From Malus domestica (taxonomy: Eukaryota > Streptophyta > Magnoliopsida > Rosales > Rosaceae), in contig NC_091664.1 of the NCBI RefSeq assembly GCF_042453785.1, forward strand, positions 30,490,501 through 30,554,500: a DNA stretch of 64,000 bases. Reading direction: 5' to 3'. Below, one piece after another: positions 8,336 to 24,611 of this stretch (position 1 is the first letter of the stretch; each line of letters begins with the position of its first letter). The notes under the pieces are model-generated. The model saw only the letters and a list, made by a program, of their open reading frames with translations, did no database searches and was not told the origin of the DNA. A program made the position numbers and the translations under genes.

Positions 8336-8472
8336 ACTTGGGATCTACGTTTTTCGAGGGGCCAGACTGGTCGATATCCATCCGGTGGCCGTCCAGCGGT
8401 TTCAACTTATTCTCTTGCTGTTGCTGCTCGCAGCAGACACCGTCTGCGTTATTCGTCGTCGGTAGCTTGCAC
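8336..8472 (-). pseudogene. Fragment copy of the KRR1-like gene 5' end
   Basis: The reverse complement matches the leader and first exon of the KRR1-like gene at about 22389-22548. It shares GTGCAAGCTAC, the GTCTGCTGYGAGCARCAACAG block, a CGGCCACCGRATGGAYATCGAC block and a GTAGATCCCAAGT/ATAGATCCCAAGT block, with many substitutions between (roughly three quarters identical by eye). Only the leader and most of exon 1 are present; no downstream exons follow. It reads as a decayed partial duplicate. It lies between two MITEs and about 0.4 kb from a Mutator-like element. Confidence 0.7.
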
Positions 8473-8679: not shown

Positions 8680-9249
8680 TCTCTCACTCCTTCCCGTCCT
8701 TCATCATTTGAGTGGCTGTGATCTGCATGCAAAAATATAGCACATCTTTCATTTTTTAAGCCTTTGCTCTATTGAAATAAATGTGGATAAAAATGGCCAT
8801 TGGATATGTTTTCGGCTGTGATCAAAACGCTGAGATTAGAAGTAAAAGGAATAGTGCTGAACTTCGTCCTTTCTCAAAGGGAAATTTTATTTGAACATAT
8901 GTAACTTCTTTCTACACTCAACTTAAATTTTGAATTGTTAATTGTCTATTTTACCCTATTGCATAATTACTATTAAGTACAAAATGAAATTAATAATAAA
9001 ACTCAAATTTATCAATAAACCCACACACTATAATTAAATTCTACCATCACTTCTTGTTTATCCTACATTTATACCGATTAAAACCCTAATAGCTCTTGTA
9101 GAGAAAAACAAGTTTTTTTTTATTGATGGATGGTGATTGAAGTTTTGAATCCTCCAACTAAGGTATGACTCAATTTATGAATATTTTGTTTGTTTGATTT
9201 CAATTTTTTAAAAGTTTAAAAGATGAGTATTTGGGTTTCAATTTTTTTT

Positions 9250-12190: not shown

Positions 12191-12820
12191 AAAATGTTTT
12201 GATAGATATGTTGAAATTTCCTTTTCTTTAGTTTATTTTCTATCATGTTTTAAGTTTAGAACTCACAGTGGAAAAATTCGTAATGTAAAAATATGAACTA
12301 GTTACAACAATCTTCCTGTAATTCTTTGAATCAAGACAAGCAAGTTTAACTACTTACTGTTGGAAAAGTTGATAATTGGTTTCTTTTAATTGCAAGGTCT
12401 TAGGTTTTTTAAATCTCAGTGTTTTCCATGTTGTCAAATATCTATGCCTCGTAATTGGAAAAATTTCAAGGATAATTGTTTGATTTGTTGCTTATGCGCA
12501 TCAGCAGAAAGAAAAAAAAGGCAAATGTGTGGGTTTGGTACAGAAAGATAAAAAGTAGCCATGAAAATGCTAGTGGGAAGAAGGGGGTGGGGCAAGGACG
12601 CCATTTTGAACAGGAAAAAAAAAAACAATTAGATATGTTATTTATAAAGGGAATGAGTTTAAAGATAATTTATCATTTTGAATTGGGTTTGAGATGATAG
12701 TTTAGGTAATAAATTTGGGTTTAAAGAGATATTAGTTCTTTAATAAAAAACAATATGGGTGAAAATAGTAAGTTGAGTGTAGAAAGAGGTTACATGGGTT
12801 GAAATAAAATTTTCTTTTCC

Positions 12821-13403
12821 TTTATTGATTTTTAATAGCCTTTTGATTTGGCCGAAGGTTTAAGGTTGTATGATTAGGACTTTGGCACACCAATAGTGGG
12901 GCCATCACTGATATATAAAGTAATGCTAGTTGAGAAATGCTCTGGGCTCTCAAAAGTAAAACTTTCTAGAACTTCGTAACTTAATGTCAATTTTTTTACT
13001 AATATTATAAAAAATTATGTCAAAAATATAAGGTTGCAGAAAGTCTTACTTTTAGCTAAGAGAATCTCCTAAGTATTTCTCATGCTAGTTTAATTGGAGT
13101 CTGCTGCTATAGTGCATATTCTCATGACAACAAGAGTTTCGTAATTCAGATTCTGTATTGTGTTCTTTCGATGTTAAATAGGAAAATAGAATGCAATGCA
13201 ATTATTTGAAGTCCAGGACTCCAGGAAATGGGAAAAACTTGTTTGGGGCTCGGTTTGCTACTGGACTTTGCTTAGTGTCAGTGCAAGTCCACAAATGAAG
13301 TTCTTTCCTTTCCAACTGGTTTCCTAATTGTTCTTATTTCACGACAATACATTTCTATCGAAAACAGAAGAAAAGATTGCTTTGATCTGCCGCATCAAAT
13401 TAC
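12821..13403. other. Intergenic spacer holding one MITE
   Basis: The spacer lies between the MULE right end and the 3' end of the MATE gene. Apart from the MITE at 12923-13091, I see only the likely 3' untranslated region of the MATE gene (roughly 13150-13403). No other gene is evident. Confidence 0.5.
12923..13091. mobile_element. MITE with GCTAGTTGAGAAAT termini
   Basis: Imperfect inverted arms of about 55 bp: the left has GCTAGTTGAGAAATGCTC and AAAAGTAAAACTTTCT, and the right in reverse complement has ACTAGCATGAGAAATACTTA and AAAAGTAAGACTTTCT. The short loop is AT-rich. It is non-coding, and no target duplication was determined. Confidence 0.7.
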
Positions 13404-13689
13404 CTAGGTCGTACCGTCGATGACTGAGGTGGTATTCTGAACACGATTGGCAGCCTTCGTTGCCTGAAATGAGGAACTGTATTAAACATGGACAAAATGC
13501 TATTAGCAAGGTGAAACGAAGGACATGTCCTGAACTTACCTCTTTATTCCAATCAGTGCGTAAATTTACCACCACAAGTGCTGTTAGTTGAACAACAAGT
13601 CCACAAATGATTCCCATCCAAAGCCCCTATACACACAAATTTAAACTTCAATGGCTGATACATACATACATATATATATACACACACAA

Positions 13690-13728: not shown

Positions 13729-15265
13729 CACCATACCTCCAATATGGAGGACGAAGGCGAAAACCACAGCAGTAGGAATTCCCACAGCATAATAAGCAAT
13801 AAAATTTATGGCTACACAAAGATTCTGCCATCCACAGCCTCTGGCAGCCCCTGCATACCCAATTATTAATTCTTTTTAGCTGCGAAATGAGAATTTTGAA
13901 AAGAAATAAAGCACTTAAAATATGTTAAGTTTCAAACTTCATGAAGCCATTGGATTCAGTAATTGCTAGAACCTGAAAGCACACATTGGAATCCATCCAA
14001 GAAGTCGGAAACTGCAAGCAGTAGCATCATTTTAGCAACATATTTGATCACTTGATGCTCATTGCTGTAGAGCTTTCCCCAAACATGGCGTATCAAAACC
14101 GTTGCTATTGCGATTGCAGCACCCTGTAATAAAGCCATCACAGTCATGACTCGTAGAGCTAATTTTGCGCCTTGTGGTCGTCCAGCACCCAATTCATTTG
14201 ACACTCTTGTGCTGTTACGATAACAGGAAAATATTATTCTCAATTTCTCAGATTAGAAGATAAATACAAGTACAAGATTGAATGTTGATATGCTGTTAGA
14301 AATCACATGAATCACCGACCTTATTGCGCTGCCAAGGCCAACTGATATCGTATAAACCATCCAACATGTGTTTAGGCTGCAAAGACAACAACAAAATCAG
14401 AAACTATTCAAATTTACTTACGAGTGAACGAATAATAGTTCTCTATAGTTTTCTACATTCTGTACCTTATTGATAACACAGATGTTTCTAGTTTTGGGTT
14501 CGGGAGAAGACCGGATAAGAGAACAACCATTTCGAAACACCAATATTCGAGGCTGCAATTCGAAAGCGTGTATATAGTCAGTGATTCAAATAGAAAAAAA
14601 AAAAAGATCCAACATTTCTGGTACACATGACAATTTTGATGTTTTGTACTATCTGTTAAGCAGAAAATGAAACGTACCATAGCATTACAGCTGAAGAAAT
14701 GGCAAGTTTGACAAAGCTGAAAATGTCATGCAATGCCTGTTTCGAAAATCCAGTCCAAGTTTTCTTGCAGGCGGGCGAGAACAGCACATAACTTGCCACT
14801 AACACCACGTTAAGCCAATGCGAAATGCTAATTGCCAACGCGGCACCTTTGTTTCGCAGTCCAGATTTAAAAATAAGTCCCCAACAAACCGCAATGTGGA
14901 GAAAAGCTGTGACTCCAGAGGTGATCATCATTGGAAACACATTGTTTTGCGTCTGTAAAAATCTGTTGAGGCATTGGAGGAGGCTGAAGGCGAACAGACT
15001 CGGAATCATCCAGCGGTTGAAGGTTCCTGCCTCGGCAGATATCTCGTGGTCTTGGTGAAGAGCCATGAGAATGTCGCTTGTGTAGAACCAGATGAGTGAC
15101 AAGGGAATGCTTACTGCTAATAATATTAGCATTGCTTTTTGCATGTGGACTCCAAGCATGCGGTACTGTTTGGCTCCGTAGGCTTGCCCACATAGTGTTT
15201 CCAATGCACTTCCCATTCCCAACTGCGAGACATGTTTGATAATTTTTTACTGGCCTCTAATAAAA

Positions 15266-15369: not shown

Positions 15370-15724
15370 TCTAAATGAGCCCCTAAAGAATTAAATCATA
15401 TTCATGTTTTTATTCTAATGAGAGTCGAATACAGTAACAGTCCAATGCAATAACAAATAGATCAAACTAGACTTGGACAATACAATACTTTTTATTATCC
15501 ATCGTAACCAACATGAGGACTTTCATGCAACGGGAACGTCACATTGGCGCCGTGACAAATGGAGAAAAGCTTAAACACCGCCACTTACCAAAAGAAAATT
15601 TGAACAAAATGTTGAAGAGAAAGTCACTTACCAAGACACTGAATCCAGTGACATTAGCAAAGGAAGAGGCCATGGAAGCACTAGAAAGTTCCAACTCTCC
15701 GAGATGGCCGACAAACATGACTGC

Positions 15725-15729
15725 TGTGA
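15725..15729. repeat. Target-site duplication, left (TGTGA)
   Basis: TGTGA directly precedes the 5' LTR and is repeated at 20854-20858 directly after the 3' LTR. A 5-bp duplication is what a Copia integrase produces. Confidence 0.95.
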
Positions 15730-16192
15730 TGTTGGAAGCTAACCAGCTCCTAGAGTCGGGGAGTCGAAGGCAGCAAGATACTCCCGAGCAAAAGGATGTC
15801 ATCTGCATCGAAGAAGAAGAAAGAAAATGAAGGGTTCTAGTCTCCAACGGCTAGTTTTGTTTTTAAATGTTTGTGTAAGTGTGTGAGTGACAAGTGTACA
15901 CTCCAGATTAAATCATTTAACCCCAAAATGAAGGGTTAGGATGTAATCTGGAGTAGTAAGGCTTAATGGTTGTTAAAGCCTCTTGTCAATCACCTTTTGT
16001 AGAAGTATGGGTGATGGAAATGCACCATACTCTTGTGTAAAAATCACTCTACTTATTCAATTAAGTCTGCTGCATTATTTGCATAGCAGAAACCAATCTC
16101 CAAGTTCCTTTCTTTTTCAATTTCTCTACTATCCTACCCAAGAAACCGATTCAAACACTCAATCAAAAACATAAAACAAACAAACTTTATCA
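15730..16192 (+). repeat. 5' LTR of the Copia element
   Basis: 463 bp, beginning TGTTGG and ending ATCA, nearly identical to the copy at 20391-20853. It is followed directly by the primer-binding site. Confidence 0.95.
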
Positions 16193-16311
16193 TGGCCTCA
16201 GAGCTTTGTTATTGATCTTACAACTTTCGGGGCGTAATCTGTGCAAGATAAGATCTTTGGGAGCACCAACGTAGTGTCTTCTATAACAATAATCAACAAA
16301 CAATTCTGGAA

Positions 16312-19300
16312 ATGAAAGGATCCAGCAGTAGCAGTGAGCTAAAAGCTCCAGTCTTTGATGGGGAGAATTATGATTTTTGGAGAATAAGAATGACAACCAT
16401 TTTCAAATCCTATGATCTATGGGATATGGTTCAACATGGGTATGAACTACCTGAGATGGAGATCGATGCTCTAGAGGAGGATCTCACAGAAACACAACTC
16501 AAAACACTGAAGCAGAATCGGATGGAGGATGCTAGAGCACTTGGAATCATTCAAGGTGCTGTCTCAGACACCATTTTTCCGAGGATAGCAAATGAAGAGA
16601 CTGCAAAGGGAGCTTGGGAAGTTTTACAGCAAGAATACAGAGGAGACACCAAAGTTAGAAAGGTAAAACTTCAGTCCCTTAGAAGAGATTTTGAGTATAC
16701 AAGAATGAGGGAAAATGAGCTGTTAAAAGACTACTTCACTAGGCTGTTTGATGTTGTAAACAAGATGAAAACATATGGTGAGGAACTGCCTAATGAAAGA
16801 ATTGTCCAAAAACTGTTGATTAGTTTGACTAAACCCTATGATTCAATAGTGAGTGTTATAGAAGAAACCAAAGACACTGAAACTCTCAGTGTACAAGAGG
16901 TGATGGCATCCTTAAGAGCTTTTGATCAAAGGCTCGAGAGGCATGCTGACTCTGCACCTGAGAAAGCCTTTCAAACACTCAATGTTGGATCTAGTAGTCA
17001 AGCCAGTGCAAGCAATCAGAAACCACAGTGGAAGGGCAAAAGCAAGAAATGGGAAGGAAAAGGGTATCACAACTCAAGACCTAACCAAGGCAGCAACACC
17101 AATGTAGGTCCAAGAACCAAGCAGCAATGTAAGCACTGTGATAAATTCCACCTTGGAGAGTGTTGGTTCAAGGACAAGCCTAGATGCCACAAATGCAACA
17201 GGTTTGGGCACATTATGAAGGACTGCAGATCAAAGAATGTGCAACAAGTAAACTGTGCAAATCAAGTGGAAGAAGAAGCAAATGTGTTCTGTGCTTTCAA
17301 TGCAAAAATGGAGAGAAACAATGAAGTGTGGTACATTGACAGTGGCTGCAGCAACCACATGACTGCACATGAGTCTTTACTTATTGACATCGACACAAAC
17401 TTCACTGGAAAAGTGAAAATGGGTGATGGAAACATTGTCAAAGCCACTGGAAGAGGAACTCTGGTTATCAACACCAAGAAAGGAAGAAGATGTATAAGGG
17501 AGGTGATGCTAGTGCCTGGATTGGATGAGAATCTACTTAGTGTGGGTCAAATGATGGAGCATGGCTATTTCCTACTCTTTGGGGGAACTGTGGTTGAGAT
17601 CTATGATGACAGATCCCTATCAAACTTGGTGACCAAAGTGGAAGTGAAAAACAGAAGCTTTCCACTTGTACTGAAGTACTTAGAAGAAATGGCAAAGAAA
17701 GCAAGTGTGACAAGTTCTATGAAACTATGGCACAAGAGACTTGGTCATTTAAACATGACAAGCTTACAAAATCTGCAAAAGGATGAAATGGTGCAAGGTA
17801 TACCAAAAATGGATCAATGCAATGAAATCTGTGAAGGGTGTGTGTTTGGCAAGCATCACAGAGATTCATTTGAAGCTGGAAAGGCTTGGAGGGCAACAAA
17901 GCCACTCGAATTGATTCACTCAGATGTGTGTGGACCAATGAGAACAACAACAATCAGTGGAAACAGGTATTTCCTAACCTTCATTGATGATTATTCACGG
18001 ATGTGTTGGGTGTATTTCATGAGGTTCAAGTCTGAGGTATTCACAATATTCAAGAAGTTTAAGGCAATGGTGGAATTGCAAAGTGGATACCAAATCAAAA
18101 GACTAAGAAGTGATAGGGGTGGTGAGTACACCTCACATGAGTTCAATGTATTCTGTGAAGATGTAGGGTTGGAGAAGCAACTCACTGTGGCATATTCACC
18201 ACAACAGAATGGGATTGCAGAAAGGAAGAATAGGACAATAGTCGAAATGGCTAAGTCTATGATGCATGAGAAGAACATGCCTTATAAATTTTGGGGTGAA
18301 GCTGTGAACACCTCAGTGTATCTATTGAATAGGTGTCCTACTAAGGCATTGGAGAAGAAGACTCCATTTGAAGTGTTCAGTGGAAGGAAGCCTTCTGTGA
18401 AGCATCTGAGAGTGTTTGGCTCAGTATGCTACAATCTCATCCCTCATCAACTAAGGCACAAGTTGGAGAAATCAAGTAACAAGGGTGTTTTTGTAGGCTA
18501 TGGTACCAGTGAGAAAGGATACAGAGTTTATAATGTATTGACTCAAAAGATAATCCTATCAAGGGATGTTATCTTTGATGAAGACTCAATGTGGAACTGG
18601 GATACAATGGTAGAGGAAAAGGACAGTGTCTCTCTACAAATTGACCTAAACAAAAGGCAAACAAGGGAGCCTATAGAGACCTCAGTTCAAGAAGAAGTCA
18701 CAGATAATGGTGACATACAAGGGACCCCACAGCAAGCTACTATGAGTCCACAATCAAGTCAATCACAGACAACAACTCCTAGTTCAACTCCAGTAAGATT
18801 GAGAAATCTGGATGAGATTTATGCTACATGTAATTACTGTGTAGTAGAACCAGAAACGTATGAAGAAGCTGAGAAAGACATAGCTTGGAAGAAAGCAATG
18901 AAGGAAGAGCTTGAAATGATAGAAAAGAATGACACTTGGGAACTTGTAAATCGACCAAGTGAGAAGCCTGTGATTGGTGTAAAATGGGTGTACAAAGTGA
19001 AGCTAAATCTAGATGGTTCTGTGCAAAAGAACAAGGCCAGGTTAGTGGCCAAAGGTTACTCACAGAAACCTGGTGTAGACTTCAATGAAACCTTTGCTCC
19101 AGTAGCAAGGTTAGACACCATAAGGACCTTGATAGCACTAGCAGCCAAGAAGGGTTGGAAGCTGCATCAATTGGATGTTAAATCTGCATTTCTAAATGGA
19201 GTGCTAGAGGAGGAAGTGTTTGTGGAACAACCTCAAGGGTTCACAAATCAAGAGTTTCCAGAAAAAGTGTACAAGTTAAGGAAGGCTCTTTATGGCCTAA

Positions 19301-20403
19301 AACAAGCTCCAAGAGCTTGGTACAGTGAGATTGATTCATATTTCATTGAGAAAGGATTTCAGAAAAGTCCTAGTGAAGCTACACTCTACACCAAGACAGA
19401 AAGCAACAACAAGACACTCATTGTCTCAATCTATGTGGATGATGTTGTCTACACTGGAAATGATGCTGCAATGATGGAAGAGTTCAAGGAAGAAATGATG
19501 AAGAGGTACGAGATGACTGACCTAGGCCTCTTGCATCATTTTCTTGGCATTGGGGTAATTCAAAAAGCAAGTAGCATCTTTATTCATCAAAAGAAGTATG
19601 CTGAAACTTTGCTTGAAAAGTTTGGTTTGAAGGGTTGCAAACCAGTTTCTACACCCTTAATTGCAAATGAGAAGCTCAAGAAGGAGGATGGAAGTGAACC
19701 TGCAGATGCTAGTCTCTATAAAAGCATTGTTGGCAGTCTATTGTATCTAACTGCAACAAGGCCAGATCTGATGTTCTCAGCAAGCCTACTTTCTAGGTTT
19801 ATGCAGAATCCTAGCAAGATACATATGGGCACAGCTAAGAGAGTACTAAGATATGTACAAGGAACTCTTGATTATGGGATCAAATATGAGATGGGAAAGT
19901 CATCTATTCTAATTGGATTCTGTGATAGTGACTGGGGTGGCAGTGAGGATGATAGTAGAAGCACATCGGGCTATGCTTTCACTTTCGGATCAGGGGTTTT
20001 TTCATGGGCCTCTGTGAAGCAACAAAGTGTTGCACTGTCCACAGCCGAGGCAGAGTATGTGAGTGCATCAGAAGCTACATCTCAAGCTATTTGGCTAAGG
20101 TTCATACTTAAAGATTTTGGCGAATTGCAAGTTGAAGCCACACCACTTCTGTGTGACAACACCTCTGCAATTGCCATGACTAAAAACCCAGTATTTCATC
20201 AGAGAACAAAACACATCAAGAGAAGATATCATTTCATCAGAGAAGCATTGCAAGACAACACAATCAAGCTAATCTATTGCAGCACAGAAGATCAGATCGC
20301 AGACATATTCACAAAAGCACTACCGAAGGAGAGATTCAATTACCTGAGGGGTTTGCTCGGATTGACTCCCAGAAGCAGTTTAGAAGGGAGTGTTGGAAGC
20401 TAA
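16312..20403 (+). CDS. Copia gag-pol polyprotein
   Basis: One 1363-residue open frame in the Copia domain order. Gag is N-terminal; a CCHC knuckle (CHKCNRFGHIMKDC) lies near residue 300. The protease motif IDSGCSNHMT is near 345. Next come the GAG-pre-integrase block (LWHKRLGHLN) near 475, the integrase core (LELIHSDVCGPM and a later SDRGGEYTS) over about 530-690, a reverse transcriptase with YVDD near 1045, and RNase H with CDSDWGG near 1205. The stop lies a few bases inside the 3' LTR. Copia elements usually make Gag and Pol from one frame. It looks whole, in line with the near-identical LTRs. Confidence 0.95.
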   Translation: MKGSSSSSELKAPVFDGENYDFWRIRMTTIFKSYDLWDMVQHGYELPEMEIDALEEDLTETQLKTLKQNRMEDARALGIIQGAVSDTIFPRIANEETAKGAWEVLQQEYRGDTKVRKVKLQSLRRDFEYTRMRENELLKDYFTRLFDVVNKMKTYGEELPNERIVQKLLISLTKPYDSIVSVIEETKDTETLSVQEVMASLRAFDQRLERHADSAPEKAFQTLNVGSSSQASASNQKPQWKGKSKKWEGKGYHNSRPNQGSNTNVGPRTKQQCKHCDKFHLGECWFKDKPRCHKCNRFGHIMKDCRSKNVQQVNCANQVEEEANVFCAFNAKMERNNEVWYIDSGCSNHMTAHESLLIDIDTNFTGKVKMGDGNIVKATGRGTLVINTKKGRRCIREVMLVPGLDENLLSVGQMMEHGYFLLFGGTVVEIYDDRSLSNLVTKVEVKNRSFPLVLKYLEEMAKKASVTSSMKLWHKRLGHLNMTSLQNLQKDEMVQGIPKMDQCNEICEGCVFGKHHRDSFEAGKAWRATKPLELIHSDVCGPMRTTTISGNRYFLTFIDDYSRMCWVYFMRFKSEVFTIFKKFKAMVELQSGYQIKRLRSDRGGEYTSHEFNVFCEDVGLEKQLTVAYSPQQNGIAERKNRTIVEMAKSMMHEKNMPYKFWGEAVNTSVYLLNRCPTKALEKKTPFEVFSGRKPSVKHLRVFGSVCYNLIPHQLRHKLEKSSNKGVFVGYGTSEKGYRVYNVLTQKIILSRDVIFDEDSMWNWDTMVEEKDSVSLQIDLNKRQTREPIETSVQEEVTDNGDIQGTPQQATMSPQSSQSQTTTPSSTPVRLRNLDEIYATCNYCVVEPETYEEAEKDIAWKKAMKEELEMIEKNDTWELVNRPSEKPVIGVKWVYKVKLNLDGSVQKNKARLVAKGYSQKPGVDFNETFAPVARLDTIRTLIALAAKKGWKLHQLDVKSAFLNGVLEEEVFVEQPQGFTNQEFPEKVYKLRKALYGLKQAPRAWYSEIDSYFIEKGFQKSPSEATLYTKTESNNKTLIVSIYVDDVVYTGNDAAMMEEFKEEMMKRYEMTDLGLLHHFLGIGVIQKASSIFIHQKKYAETLLEKFGLKGCKPVSTPLIANEKLKKEDGSEPADASLYKSIVGSLLYLTATRPDLMFSASLLSRFMQNPSKIHMGTAKRVLRYVQGTLDYGIKYEMGKSSILIGFCDSDWGGSEDDSRSTSGYAFTFGSGVFSWASVKQQSVALSTAEAEYVSASEATSQAIWLRFILKDFGELQVEATPLLCDNTSAIAMTKNPVFHQRTKHIKRRYHFIREALQDNTIKLIYCSTEDQIADIFTKALPKERFNYLRGLLGLTPRSSLEGSVGS

Positions 20404-20853
20404 CCAGCTCCTGGAGTCGGGGAGTCGAAGGCAGCAAGATACTCCCGAGCAAAAGGATGTCATCTGCATCGAAGAAGAAGAAAGAAAATGAAGGGTTCTA
20501 GTCTCCAACGGCTAGTTTTGTTTTTAAATGTTTGTGTAAGTGTGTGAGTGACAAGTGTACACTCCAGATTAAATCATTTAACCCCAAAATGAAGGGTTAG
20601 GATGTAATCTGGAGTAGTAAGGCTTAATGGTTGTTAAAGCCTCTTGTCAATCACCTTTTGTAGAAGTATGGGTGATGGAAATGCACCATACTCTTGTGTA
20701 AAAATCACTCTACTTATTCAATTAAGTCTGCTGCATTATTTGCATAGCAGAAACCAATCTCCAAGTTCCTTTCTTTTTCAATTTCTCTACTATCCTACCC
20801 AAGAAACCGATTCAAACACTCAATCAAAAACATAAAACAAACAAACTTTATCA
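20391..20853 (+). repeat. 3' LTR of the Copia element
   Basis: 463 bp, nearly identical to the 5' LTR and followed by the second TGTGA copy at 20854-20858. Confidence 0.95.
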
Positions 20854-21183
20854 TGTGACCTGTAAGCTGTACTGCAACAAGCTCACTGCAATCAGAGGAC
20901 CCGCCAGCCACAGTTGCAACTTCGCTTCTTGAATTACAAGCCATCTTTTAGAAACCGGCACGTTCGGCGATATATCGGAATTTTGAGGCGTTGGCATTGG
21001 AAAAAGGGGTGACTATTTCTTCAGATGTATCGGTCGCCAAAAGAGAGTTAAATTTCGGAAATTCTGGAAAAAAATTTTACCTAGCGTCGGAATGAGTCTG
21101 GGTTGCAGAGCCTCGCGAAGAACGACGTGAAAATTGAAACCCTTCTGTTGCGTTTTTCCTTCTCTTTTGACACGTGGCATAAT

Positions 21184-21280
21184 CTACACCCTCCACTACA
21201 ATCCTATTATAATTTGTATTCTTCTATTATAATTTACACCCTCCACTACAATCCTATTATAATTTGTATTCTTCTATGTA
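21184..21280. repeat. Two-copy 50-bp tandem repeat
   Basis: Two adjacent units share ACACCCTCCACTACAATCCT and ATTATAATTTGTATTCTTCT at a spacing of 50 bp, nearly identical. They lie upstream of the MATE start codon, so they could be promoter-proximal. Confidence 0.85.
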
Positions 21281-22019: not shown

Positions 22020-22157
22020 ATGGGTTTGAGATGATAGTTTAGGTAATAAATTTGGGTTTAAAGAGAGATAGTTCTTTAATAAAAAACAATATGGATGAAA
22101 AAAGTAAGTTGGGTGTAAAAAGATGTTACATGGTCTCAAATAAAATTTTTCTTTCCC
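22020..22157. mobile_element. Right-terminal fragment of the MULE family at 8879-12820
   Basis: The 138 bp aligns almost end to end with 12684-12820: it shares GGGTTTGAGATGATAGTTTA, GGTAATAAATTTGGGTTTAA and TTCTTTAATAAAAAACAATA, and ends in AAATTTTTCTTTCCC. It is either a remnant of a second copy or an internally deleted derivative. It ends about 115 bp upstream of the TATA box of the KRR1-like gene. Confidence 0.85.
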
Positions 22158-22280: not shown

Positions 22281-22408
22281 GCAGGCGCAACCTCTTCCTT
22301 TTTCCTTCCCTCTGCAGTCTGCACTATCCAATTCTGCGGTATCCTTCTCCTCTGAAATTCTGATCTCATCATCTGGATATTACGGTGCGTGCAAGCTACA
22401 TACCGACG

Positions 22409-24611
22409 ATGAACGTTGACGTGAACGGCGTCTGCTGTGAGCAACAACAGCAAGACAATAAGATGAAGCCGCGGGAAGAGGTTCCAAACGGCCACCGAAT
22501 GGACATCGACAAGTACTCTCGCCCTTCAGAGGACATAGATCCCAAGTATCAAGCCAAATCATTCTCTAGGAATTTTCATAAATCCATAGGTACGTGCCTC
22601 TCCCATCGATCTCTAGTTATTATTATTATTTTTTTAATTTCGTTTTTCTTTGTGTTAATTAATTAGGCTGCTCGTAAATTTTAATTTACTGAAAGGAAAA
22701 TTTCGATTTTGTTTTGATTTTTTGTTGAGAAATTGGGTGAAAGAAGCAGGTAGTTAAACATATTTTCTTTGATTTGAAAGAATCGTCTAATATTTATTTG
22801 ATATTTTTGGTCATATTTTTGTTTACTTCTAACAATAGAACAACTTACAATATTGCCACGATAATTATTTAGATACGCAAATGATTTCTGACGTATGAGG
22901 CTTGGCATTATCTTGTGCAGAAAAAGATTTGCAAGAAGCTTGGCCCATGATTAAATCTGCTTTAGACCAGTATAATATTTTATGCTCATTGGATCTGGTA
23001 TGCAGTAATAATTATTCGTGAAATGTGATGAATTTTGAAACATGAATTATAATTATTCATACATTACTAAATTGTTTACTTTTGATCATGTTTAGGCCAG
23101 GGGTTACATGATAATCGTAGTGATCATGAATACAGACCCATATATTATTATCAGGGCAAGAAATCTTCTTCACCTTCTCTCAATTGGAGTTCCTGCATCT
23201 CAGGTAACAATTGACAGATCCTTAATTTGTTATTATTCCTTAGCTATATAGAGCCAATAAGCTATTCTCTGAGTTCAGGTAATTCTTGTATATAAACCTA
23301 TTATATATTTCGTTTCAGGCATTAGAAGTTCTGAATGGAAAGATATGCGATATCATCGACGTAGGGTTTAAAAGGAATGGACTTTGCTCAAAATTTGGTA
23401 TCCAAAAGGTGTCTGTTCTTAATAAATTTCCTTGCATTAGTTGTTCTTGCAGTTGTTTGTCATTTTTCTTGGAACAAATGTCAGGTTACAAAAATCTTGT
23501 CGTTTATGTTCTCGGATGCATTCGCTATAGCTGTGATGTAGAGCCTTTTTATTTCAGCAATATTTTGACATTGTTAATGGAATATGTGGGCACGGAATGT
23601 TGGACGGTGAAGCATCAACACGTACATAAAATGAGTGTAGCGGAGATGAGATTGCTTCATTGGATATTTGGGCACACAAGAAAGGATAAGATTAGGAATG
23701 ATGATATCCGAGGTAAAGTAGGAGTAGCTGAAATTGAAGAAAAGATGAGAGAAAATTGGTTACGGTGGTTTGGACATGTGAAACAAAGGCCTACTGACGC
23801 TCTGGTTAAAAGGTGTGATTACGAGATAGAGGTTCAAGGCCGAAGGGATAGATGAAGACCTAGAAAGACTTTGGAAGATACTCTAAGAAAAGACTTGGAG
23901 TACTTAGATCTAACTGAAGATGTGGCACAGAACTGAGTGCAATGGCGTTCTAGGATTCATACAACTAAATCTCACTTAGTGGAAAAATGTTTTATTGTTG
24001 TTGTTGTTGGATCTTTAATTTGTTTGATATTAGAAAGAATTATAGTTAGTTAGGGTTTAGTGAACAGTAATTTATGTGAGGAAGAATAAGGAATACGGGG
24101 CTTTGTTGTCATATGCTACCTGCTATATGATGAGTACCGTTTCTAATCTCTAGTTATTGTGCAGGATCAATATGTTGAACGACGACATCTTCTCTGCGGC
24201 TCCTTGCAGGTGCAGGATCATTATCTTCTACGTTTCTTTAGTCATCTCTGAAAACTTCATTAGTTTCTTCCCGTTTGTCATTCTCTAATTTTTTCTTTTT
24301 CTTCTTAAAATATAATTGAAATGTAGGCAATGGCAGATCTAACAGCCACTCAGATTTTCTTGCTTGTAAGTGTTAAGTGTTATTTTTTATTTTTATGTGA
24401 AGAAAGGATGATTAATTTACTAATTTTTAACTTGTCTGCAAATGAATAGGGTGAAGTCGTTGCTGCTATAGGGGGTTCATCTCTTGGATTAAACATATTC
24501 AGGAAGATTGTGGAAGACTGTATAGTCCATAAAGTGCCTCCTGCATACCATATCAAGAATTTTAAGATGAGAAAACAAGTGATGAAGGATCTCGAGGCTA
24601 TGCGTTTATAA
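22409..24611 (+). CDS. KRR1-like KH-domain protein (small-subunit processome family), short and divergent
   Basis: Seven exons, 22409-22589, 22921-22997, 23096-23203, 23319-23408, 24165-24209, 24327-24365 and 24450-24611, sum to 702 bp (233 residues) with correct phases throughout. Matches to plant KRR1 are EKDLQEAWPMIKSAL, DPYIIIRARNLLHLL, ALEVLNGKICDIIDVG, YVERRHLLCGSLQ, VVAAIGGSSLGLNIFRKIVEDC and AYHIKNFKMRKQVMKDLEA. Family knowledge: KRR1 binds pre-rRNA in the nucleolus for 18S processing and 40S assembly. This copy is well short of the roughly 300-400 residues usual for the family. It lacks the basic C-terminal tail, has a different Gln-rich N-terminus, and the segment that follows GSLQ has lost the usual TLKALEILTGCYILVQG pattern. 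It may be a paralogue with altered function or a gene decaying without stops. Intron 4 holds a LINE fragment. Confidence 0.72.
23577..24012 (+). mobile_element. 5'-truncated RTE-type LINE in KRR1-like intron 4
   Basis: The 3' end of the reverse transcriptase ORF is readable: GTECWTVKHQHVHKMSVAEM, then GHTRKDKIRNDDIRGKVGVA, RENWLRWFGHVKQRPTDAL and RKDLEYLDLTED. It has at least two in-frame stops (after the QGRRDR and AQN blocks). The element ends in a TTG-rich tail (TTATTGTTGTTGTTGTTGG), usual for plant RTE elements. The 5' boundary is approximate. It is in the same orientation as the host gene and entirely intronic. Confidence 0.85.

Follow-up and report, generated by a model that had tools for sequence, protein, structure and literature searches.

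A complete Ty1/copia retrotransposon lies antisense within exon 1 of a minus-strand MATE gene on contig C4 of Malus domestica, in the 64,000-nucleotide stretch of DNA analysed here (the window), which spans C4:30490501–30554500. We consider it likely that this young, intact Copia element interrupts a chimeric, probably still active MATE/DTX paralogue and has made it a null allele. The event is ordinary in kind, a coding exon hit by a young Copia element. The host gene is less ordinary than an earlier note on this DNA had supposed.

Copia insertion in MATE exon 1

The element occupies window positions 15730–20853, exactly the coordinates given in the earlier note. Its 5' LTR (TGTTGG...TTATCA; 15730–16192, plus strand) and 3' LTR (20391–20853, plus strand) are both 463 bp long and differ at one of 463 positions, LTR position 23, where the 5' copy has A and the 3' copy G. 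A perfect target site duplication, TGTGA, is found directly outside the 5' LTR (15725–15729) and directly outside the 3' LTR (20854–20858), and the MATE frame is interrupted at this duplication, confirming the note's description of a recent Copia insertion that splits exon 1 between perfect TGTGA duplications. Two 463-bp repeats bounded by matching duplications within a conserved exon are not a product of chance. A putative primer binding site, TGGCCTCAGAGC (16193–16204, plus strand), abuts the 5' LTR and resembles the usual copia Met-tRNA primer site; its first ten letters are found again in 14 of the 16 other two-LTR members of the family. The purine-rich tract ahead of the 3' LTR (20377–20390, plus strand) is a putative polypurine tract, and each of the 16 other two-LTR members examined has TAGAAGGGAG just 5' of its 3' LTR.

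A single gag-pol frame of 1363 codons (16312–20403, plus strand) ends 13 bases into the 3' LTR. The Pfam search of this frame was run in five pieces and recovered, in order, gag (PF14223), pol beta-barrel (PF22936), gag-pre-integrase (PF13976), integrase core (PF00665), SH3-like (PF25597) and RVT_2 (PF07727) domains. The integrase core scored 28.5 bits, under the cut-off of 32.6, with the domain split by the piece border at 18000/18001. The TG...CA LTR ends, the 5-bp target site duplication and the position of integrase before reverse transcriptase are those of Ty1/copia elements, as are the primer binding site and polypurine tract, both recognised by sequence and putative in function. The element could not be placed in any named Repbase family. 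It appears intact and open-framed, and is a candidate for transposition competence.

The MATE reading frame is split between ...SLLQYSLQVT and TAVMFVGHLGEL.... The 5' part of exon 1 (20854–20997, minus strand) opens with an in-frame ATG at 20997 and reaches the target site duplication after 48 codons, and relatives are homologous to it only over 20854–20938. The 3' part (exon 1b; 15632–15729, minus strand) has a splice donor only, its other end being the LTR. Coming from upstream, the MATE frame meets an in-frame TGA at the first LTR bases, right after the duplication. A farther-upstream ATG shares the frame of the 20997 start, with a stop intervening first, and the ATG at 20944 is out of the MATE frame. 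A complete first transmembrane segment, located by aligning the C16 relative with the structure 5y50, is absent from any one frame and is broken at SLQVT. In the proposed mechanism, a Ty1/copia retrotransposon would have integrated antisense into MATE exon 1 with a 5-bp stagger at TGTGA. Translation from the nearest in-frame start would then halt after 48 residues, inside transmembrane segment 1, and exons 1b–8 would be severed from the upstream start. Because of this early stop and the separation of exons 1b–8 from the nearest in-frame start, the allele is predicted to be null, and the insertion almost certainly turns off the C4 MATE copy.

Age and segregation of the insertion

The LTR divergence of the window element (K = 0.0022) dates the insertion to 83 ky (interval 2–463) at a rate of 1.3e-8, taken from PMC6445120, or to 270 ky (interval 7–1504) at a rate of 4e-9, taken from PMC11197308. 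From 135 first-look candidates, 40 LTR matches were scored, among which 16 other members with both LTRs were recovered. Six of the 40 matches had no scored partner and were excluded from dating; four of these have matching 5-bp flanks like solo LTRs and two have a one-sided primer site. Across the 16 other members K ranges from 0 to 0.020, and perfect 5-bp target site duplications are present in 15, the remaining one matching at 4 of 5 letters. Five of the 16 carry no LTR substitutions, and the Copia family is therefore young. Of 38 other LTRs, 37 have G at LTR position 23, so the 5' copy of the window element, with A, probably carries the derived state.

At roughly 0.08–0.27 My by LTR divergence, the insertion is recent yet probably older than the cultivars, and would be standing variation if it segregates at all. 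Whether it segregates among apple cultivars, with other haplotypes carrying an uninterrupted MATE gene, we regard as an even chance. The low LTR divergence, the recent ages at both published rates and the five members free of LTR substitutions are in favour, as is the report in PMC6445120 that 31.9% of one apple line's intact LTR elements are missing from another, which has a single target site there. Both age intervals, however, also allow fixation in the species, and the window covers one haplotype. Like the young intact apple LTR retrotransposons described in that source, the window element is intact, diverges little between its LTRs and is flanked by target duplications. It differs in lying inside a coding exon, whereas 12.05% of the line-specific insertions reported there are within genes. 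The rose KSN Copia allele (PMC7848002) is a parallel from another cultivated member of the Rosaceae, again with a Copia element within a gene; KSN differs in having a flowering phenotype. Should the allele segregate, plants with and without it would offer a natural loss-of-function comparison. The knockout of this dispersed transporter copy is structurally clean and can be dated, and could also be used as an insertion marker. Among the titles and abstract openings listed in literature searches, none described a retrotransposon that knocks out a MATE gene, whether in apple or in another organism.

The interrupted gene and its state before insertion

Apart from exon 1, the gene was judged healthy in the earlier note, and this holds: exon 1b and exons 2–8 are all open, with GT-AG borders. 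On the minus strand, these are exon 2 (14678–15222; PF01554), exon 3 (14466–14552), exon 4 (14320–14376), exon 5 (13973–14211; PF01554), exon 6 (13732–13850), exon 7 (13540–13626) and exon 8 (13404–13463), which ends in a TAG stop. They are followed by a 3' flank (13131–13403, minus strand) in which homology to the C13 copy persists (80% over 292 columns). Two MatE domains are present, in exon 2 (95.5 bits) and exon 5 (50.1 bits; Pfam cut-off 24.9). The best solved relative of exons 2–8 is AtDTX14 (PDB 5y50; E 1.1e-105), which is aligned over its residues 67–454; a short exon 1 peptide gave no match when searched against solved structures. The C4 copy is thus predicted to belong to the plant MATE/DTX transporters. 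It resembles AtDTX14 in its aligned exons 2–8 and its Pfam MatE domains, and differs in having a foreign 5' end where the native N-terminus would be, as well as a frame broken by the insertion. In PMC8406601, 66 MdMATE genes are catalogued.

Several relatives were identified on other contigs. Sequence continues across the site, with a single TCACA, in the relative at C16:2350853 (L035), in the C13 relative (L038) and in a C16 fragment (L036). A further fragment at C16:2368369 (L133) also has one TCACA, and its exon 1b match is 87%, against 86% for L035 (101 bases). In the C6 relative (L037), divergence at the insertion site is too great for its empty-site state to be read. These single-TCACA relatives are paralogues, and give the ancestral state of the exon and not an allele. 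The C13 relative and the C16 pieces L036 and L133 are broken or fragmentary. L035, with 83% identical residues over exon 2, is the closest open-frame relative found and may mask any effect of the C4 loss. Over exons 7–8 and the 3' flank, the C4 copy is closer to C13 (p 0.117) than to C16 (0.28); over exons 1b–2 and intron 1, where the intron alignments are poor, the distances are 0.31 to C13 and 0.29 to C16. The C4 copy is possibly a mosaic or a product of gene conversion, or else this pattern reflects poor intron alignment. Short exon 1 inserts, similar by eye, were also observed near the window's insertion place in L038 (about 2052–2257 on the gene strand) and in L133 (just upstream of exon 1b, 3969).

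Homology between the C4 copy and its relatives breaks off at 20938, just ahead of EAKLQLW and close to codon 36 in the C16 protein. Four relatives retain sequence upstream of this break, and L036, L133 and L038 match L035 there. The native N-terminus in L035 is MAEVSSSVKTPLIPDHREFDG..., and a tblastn search with it within the window returned nothing beyond the part in exon 1. The segment that replaces the native MATE 5' end (20943–21193, minus strand) was found elsewhere, in one genome search, only at C11:8115867–8116174 (L057 4867–5174), with 81–95% identity and 13 of 234 aligned positions differing. By these comparisons, the C4 copy was, before the insertion, already missing its native start, some 35 codons at the N-terminus and the upstream region with its promoter. 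The gene at that time would have consisted of the conserved core (from about VIQEAKLQLW onward) fused to a foreign 5' segment that supplied an in-frame ATG. With the native N-terminus missing and a C11-type segment in its place, the C4 copy is best described as a dispersed duplicate whose 5' end has been exchanged. C12, the homeologue of chromosome 4, yielded no close copy (exon 2 matches of at most 40% over the full length, and up to 45% in short pieces), and the C4 copy therefore does not look like a whole-genome duplicate of C12. The alignment of the C16 protein with AtDTX14 begins at C16 residue 37. Since the lost N-terminus lies outside the part aligned to 5y50, a working chimera with a replaced N-terminus is possible.

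Some repeats around the gene were also recorded. Capture of the MATE copy by a MULE was considered, with inverted arms at 8876–8925 and 12769–12818; these arms belong to a high-copy repeat and are uninformative on capture. The stretch between them looks transposase-like by eye. The repeat occurs at 8876–8931, 12684–12820 and 22021–22156, flanking the MATE gene on either side with copies in inverted and direct orientation, and a genome search with the 22021–22156 copy gave 828 first-look candidates. Within 22389–24500, a putative KRR1-like gene starts near 22410, and 8336–8472 is an inverted, 72% copy of 22389–22547.

According to the earlier note, the gene probably worked until the insertion. 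This view is partly sustained: the coding frame shows no indels and a dN/dS of about 0.24, but the native start had been lost and neutrality is not rejected by a codon model. The C4 copy can be compared with C16 over 1287 nt without indels or stops, and the pairwise estimates over 428 codons are dN 0.083, dS 0.339 and dN/dS 0.245 (bootstrap range 0.17–0.34 for the 409 codons ahead of exon 8). Because the coding frame was kept undamaged, the copy was probably still active, and it is fairly likely that it remained so right up to the insertion.

The alternative is that the C4 copy was already a pseudogene by the time of insertion, a 5'-truncated, promoterless duplicate in which the insertion changed nothing. 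We consider this unlikely. In its favour, the native start, about 35 codons and the upstream region are missing, expression may never have been driven from the foreign 5' end, and the C13 relative and two of the C16 pieces are themselves broken or fragmentary. The branch codon model also does not reject omega = 1 for the C4 branch, either with L037 as outgroup (lnL -3264.27 free vs -3264.58 neutral) or with L014 (lnL -3128.25 free vs -3128.28 neutral); both outgroups are distant, with a fitted length of about 6 per codon. In exon 2, polarised changes number 12–13 nonsynonymous to 8–9 synonymous on the window branch and 3–10 nonsynonymous to 8–9 synonymous on the C16 branch, the ranges reflecting outgroup choice, with 22–31 changes unpolarised and the C16 exon taken from L035. 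These changes give a hint of relaxed constraint on the window branch.

Against an earlier loss of function, all exons are open, the splice borders are kept, and the long indel-free alignment has a low pairwise dN/dS. In simulations of neutral evolution, the probability of no stop was 0.059 at 77 substitutions, the branch length from the neutral fit of the codon model, and 0.45 at 20. For the indel rates tried, neutral decay over 77 substitutions produced no frameshift with a probability of at most 0.056. Simulated decay thus makes much more than about 20 neutral substitutions unlikely, and a final neutral spell of 10–20 substitutions before the insertion may be compatible with the lack of stops. 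The C4 knockout could also serve to test if a chimeric MATE duplicate was functional.

It is very improbable that the antisense LTR now initiates a shortened transporter running in phase into exon 1b: the in-frame stretch MQMTSFCSGVSCCLRLPDSRSWLASN does join ITAVMFVGHLGEL, with an ATG at 15808 in the 5' LTR (15794–15808, minus strand), but the product would be without the first half of transmembrane segment 1, and an open run of such length easily arises by chance.

Other insertions of the family

A second member of the family, at C8:27439008–27444119 (flanks L063 and L064), splits exon 2 of another MATE gene, also in antisense. It has the target site duplication AAACT and an LTR K of 0.020, and the transporter frame resumes on either side. 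This C8 MATE gene carries stop codons in the matched pieces on both sides of the element. Two of the 17 two-LTR members, those in the window and on C8, are thus antisense within MATE coding exons. It is highly doubtful that the family strikes MATE coding exons above chance and is a recurrent source of MATE null alleles. The apparent preference is a post hoc impression, and the C8 hit is perhaps a coincidence.

Open stretches at the insertion edges were also sought in the flanks of the remaining 15 members. Pfam was then run on six peptides from five of these 15 members, chosen by eye, and on one C8 MATE peptide. The peptides from two members and the C8 MATE peptide gave zero matches. The member at C2:1165266–1170387 has long open frames in both flanks, with weak ubiquitin-like matches of 18.4 and 20.1 bits (below the cut-off of 25.4), and beta-amylase and dehydroquinate synthase matches were found beside two further members. 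From the C8 MATE hit and these flank matches, the family appears to insert in and near genes, at least sometimes, and the window provides one case of a low-divergence Copia family doing so.
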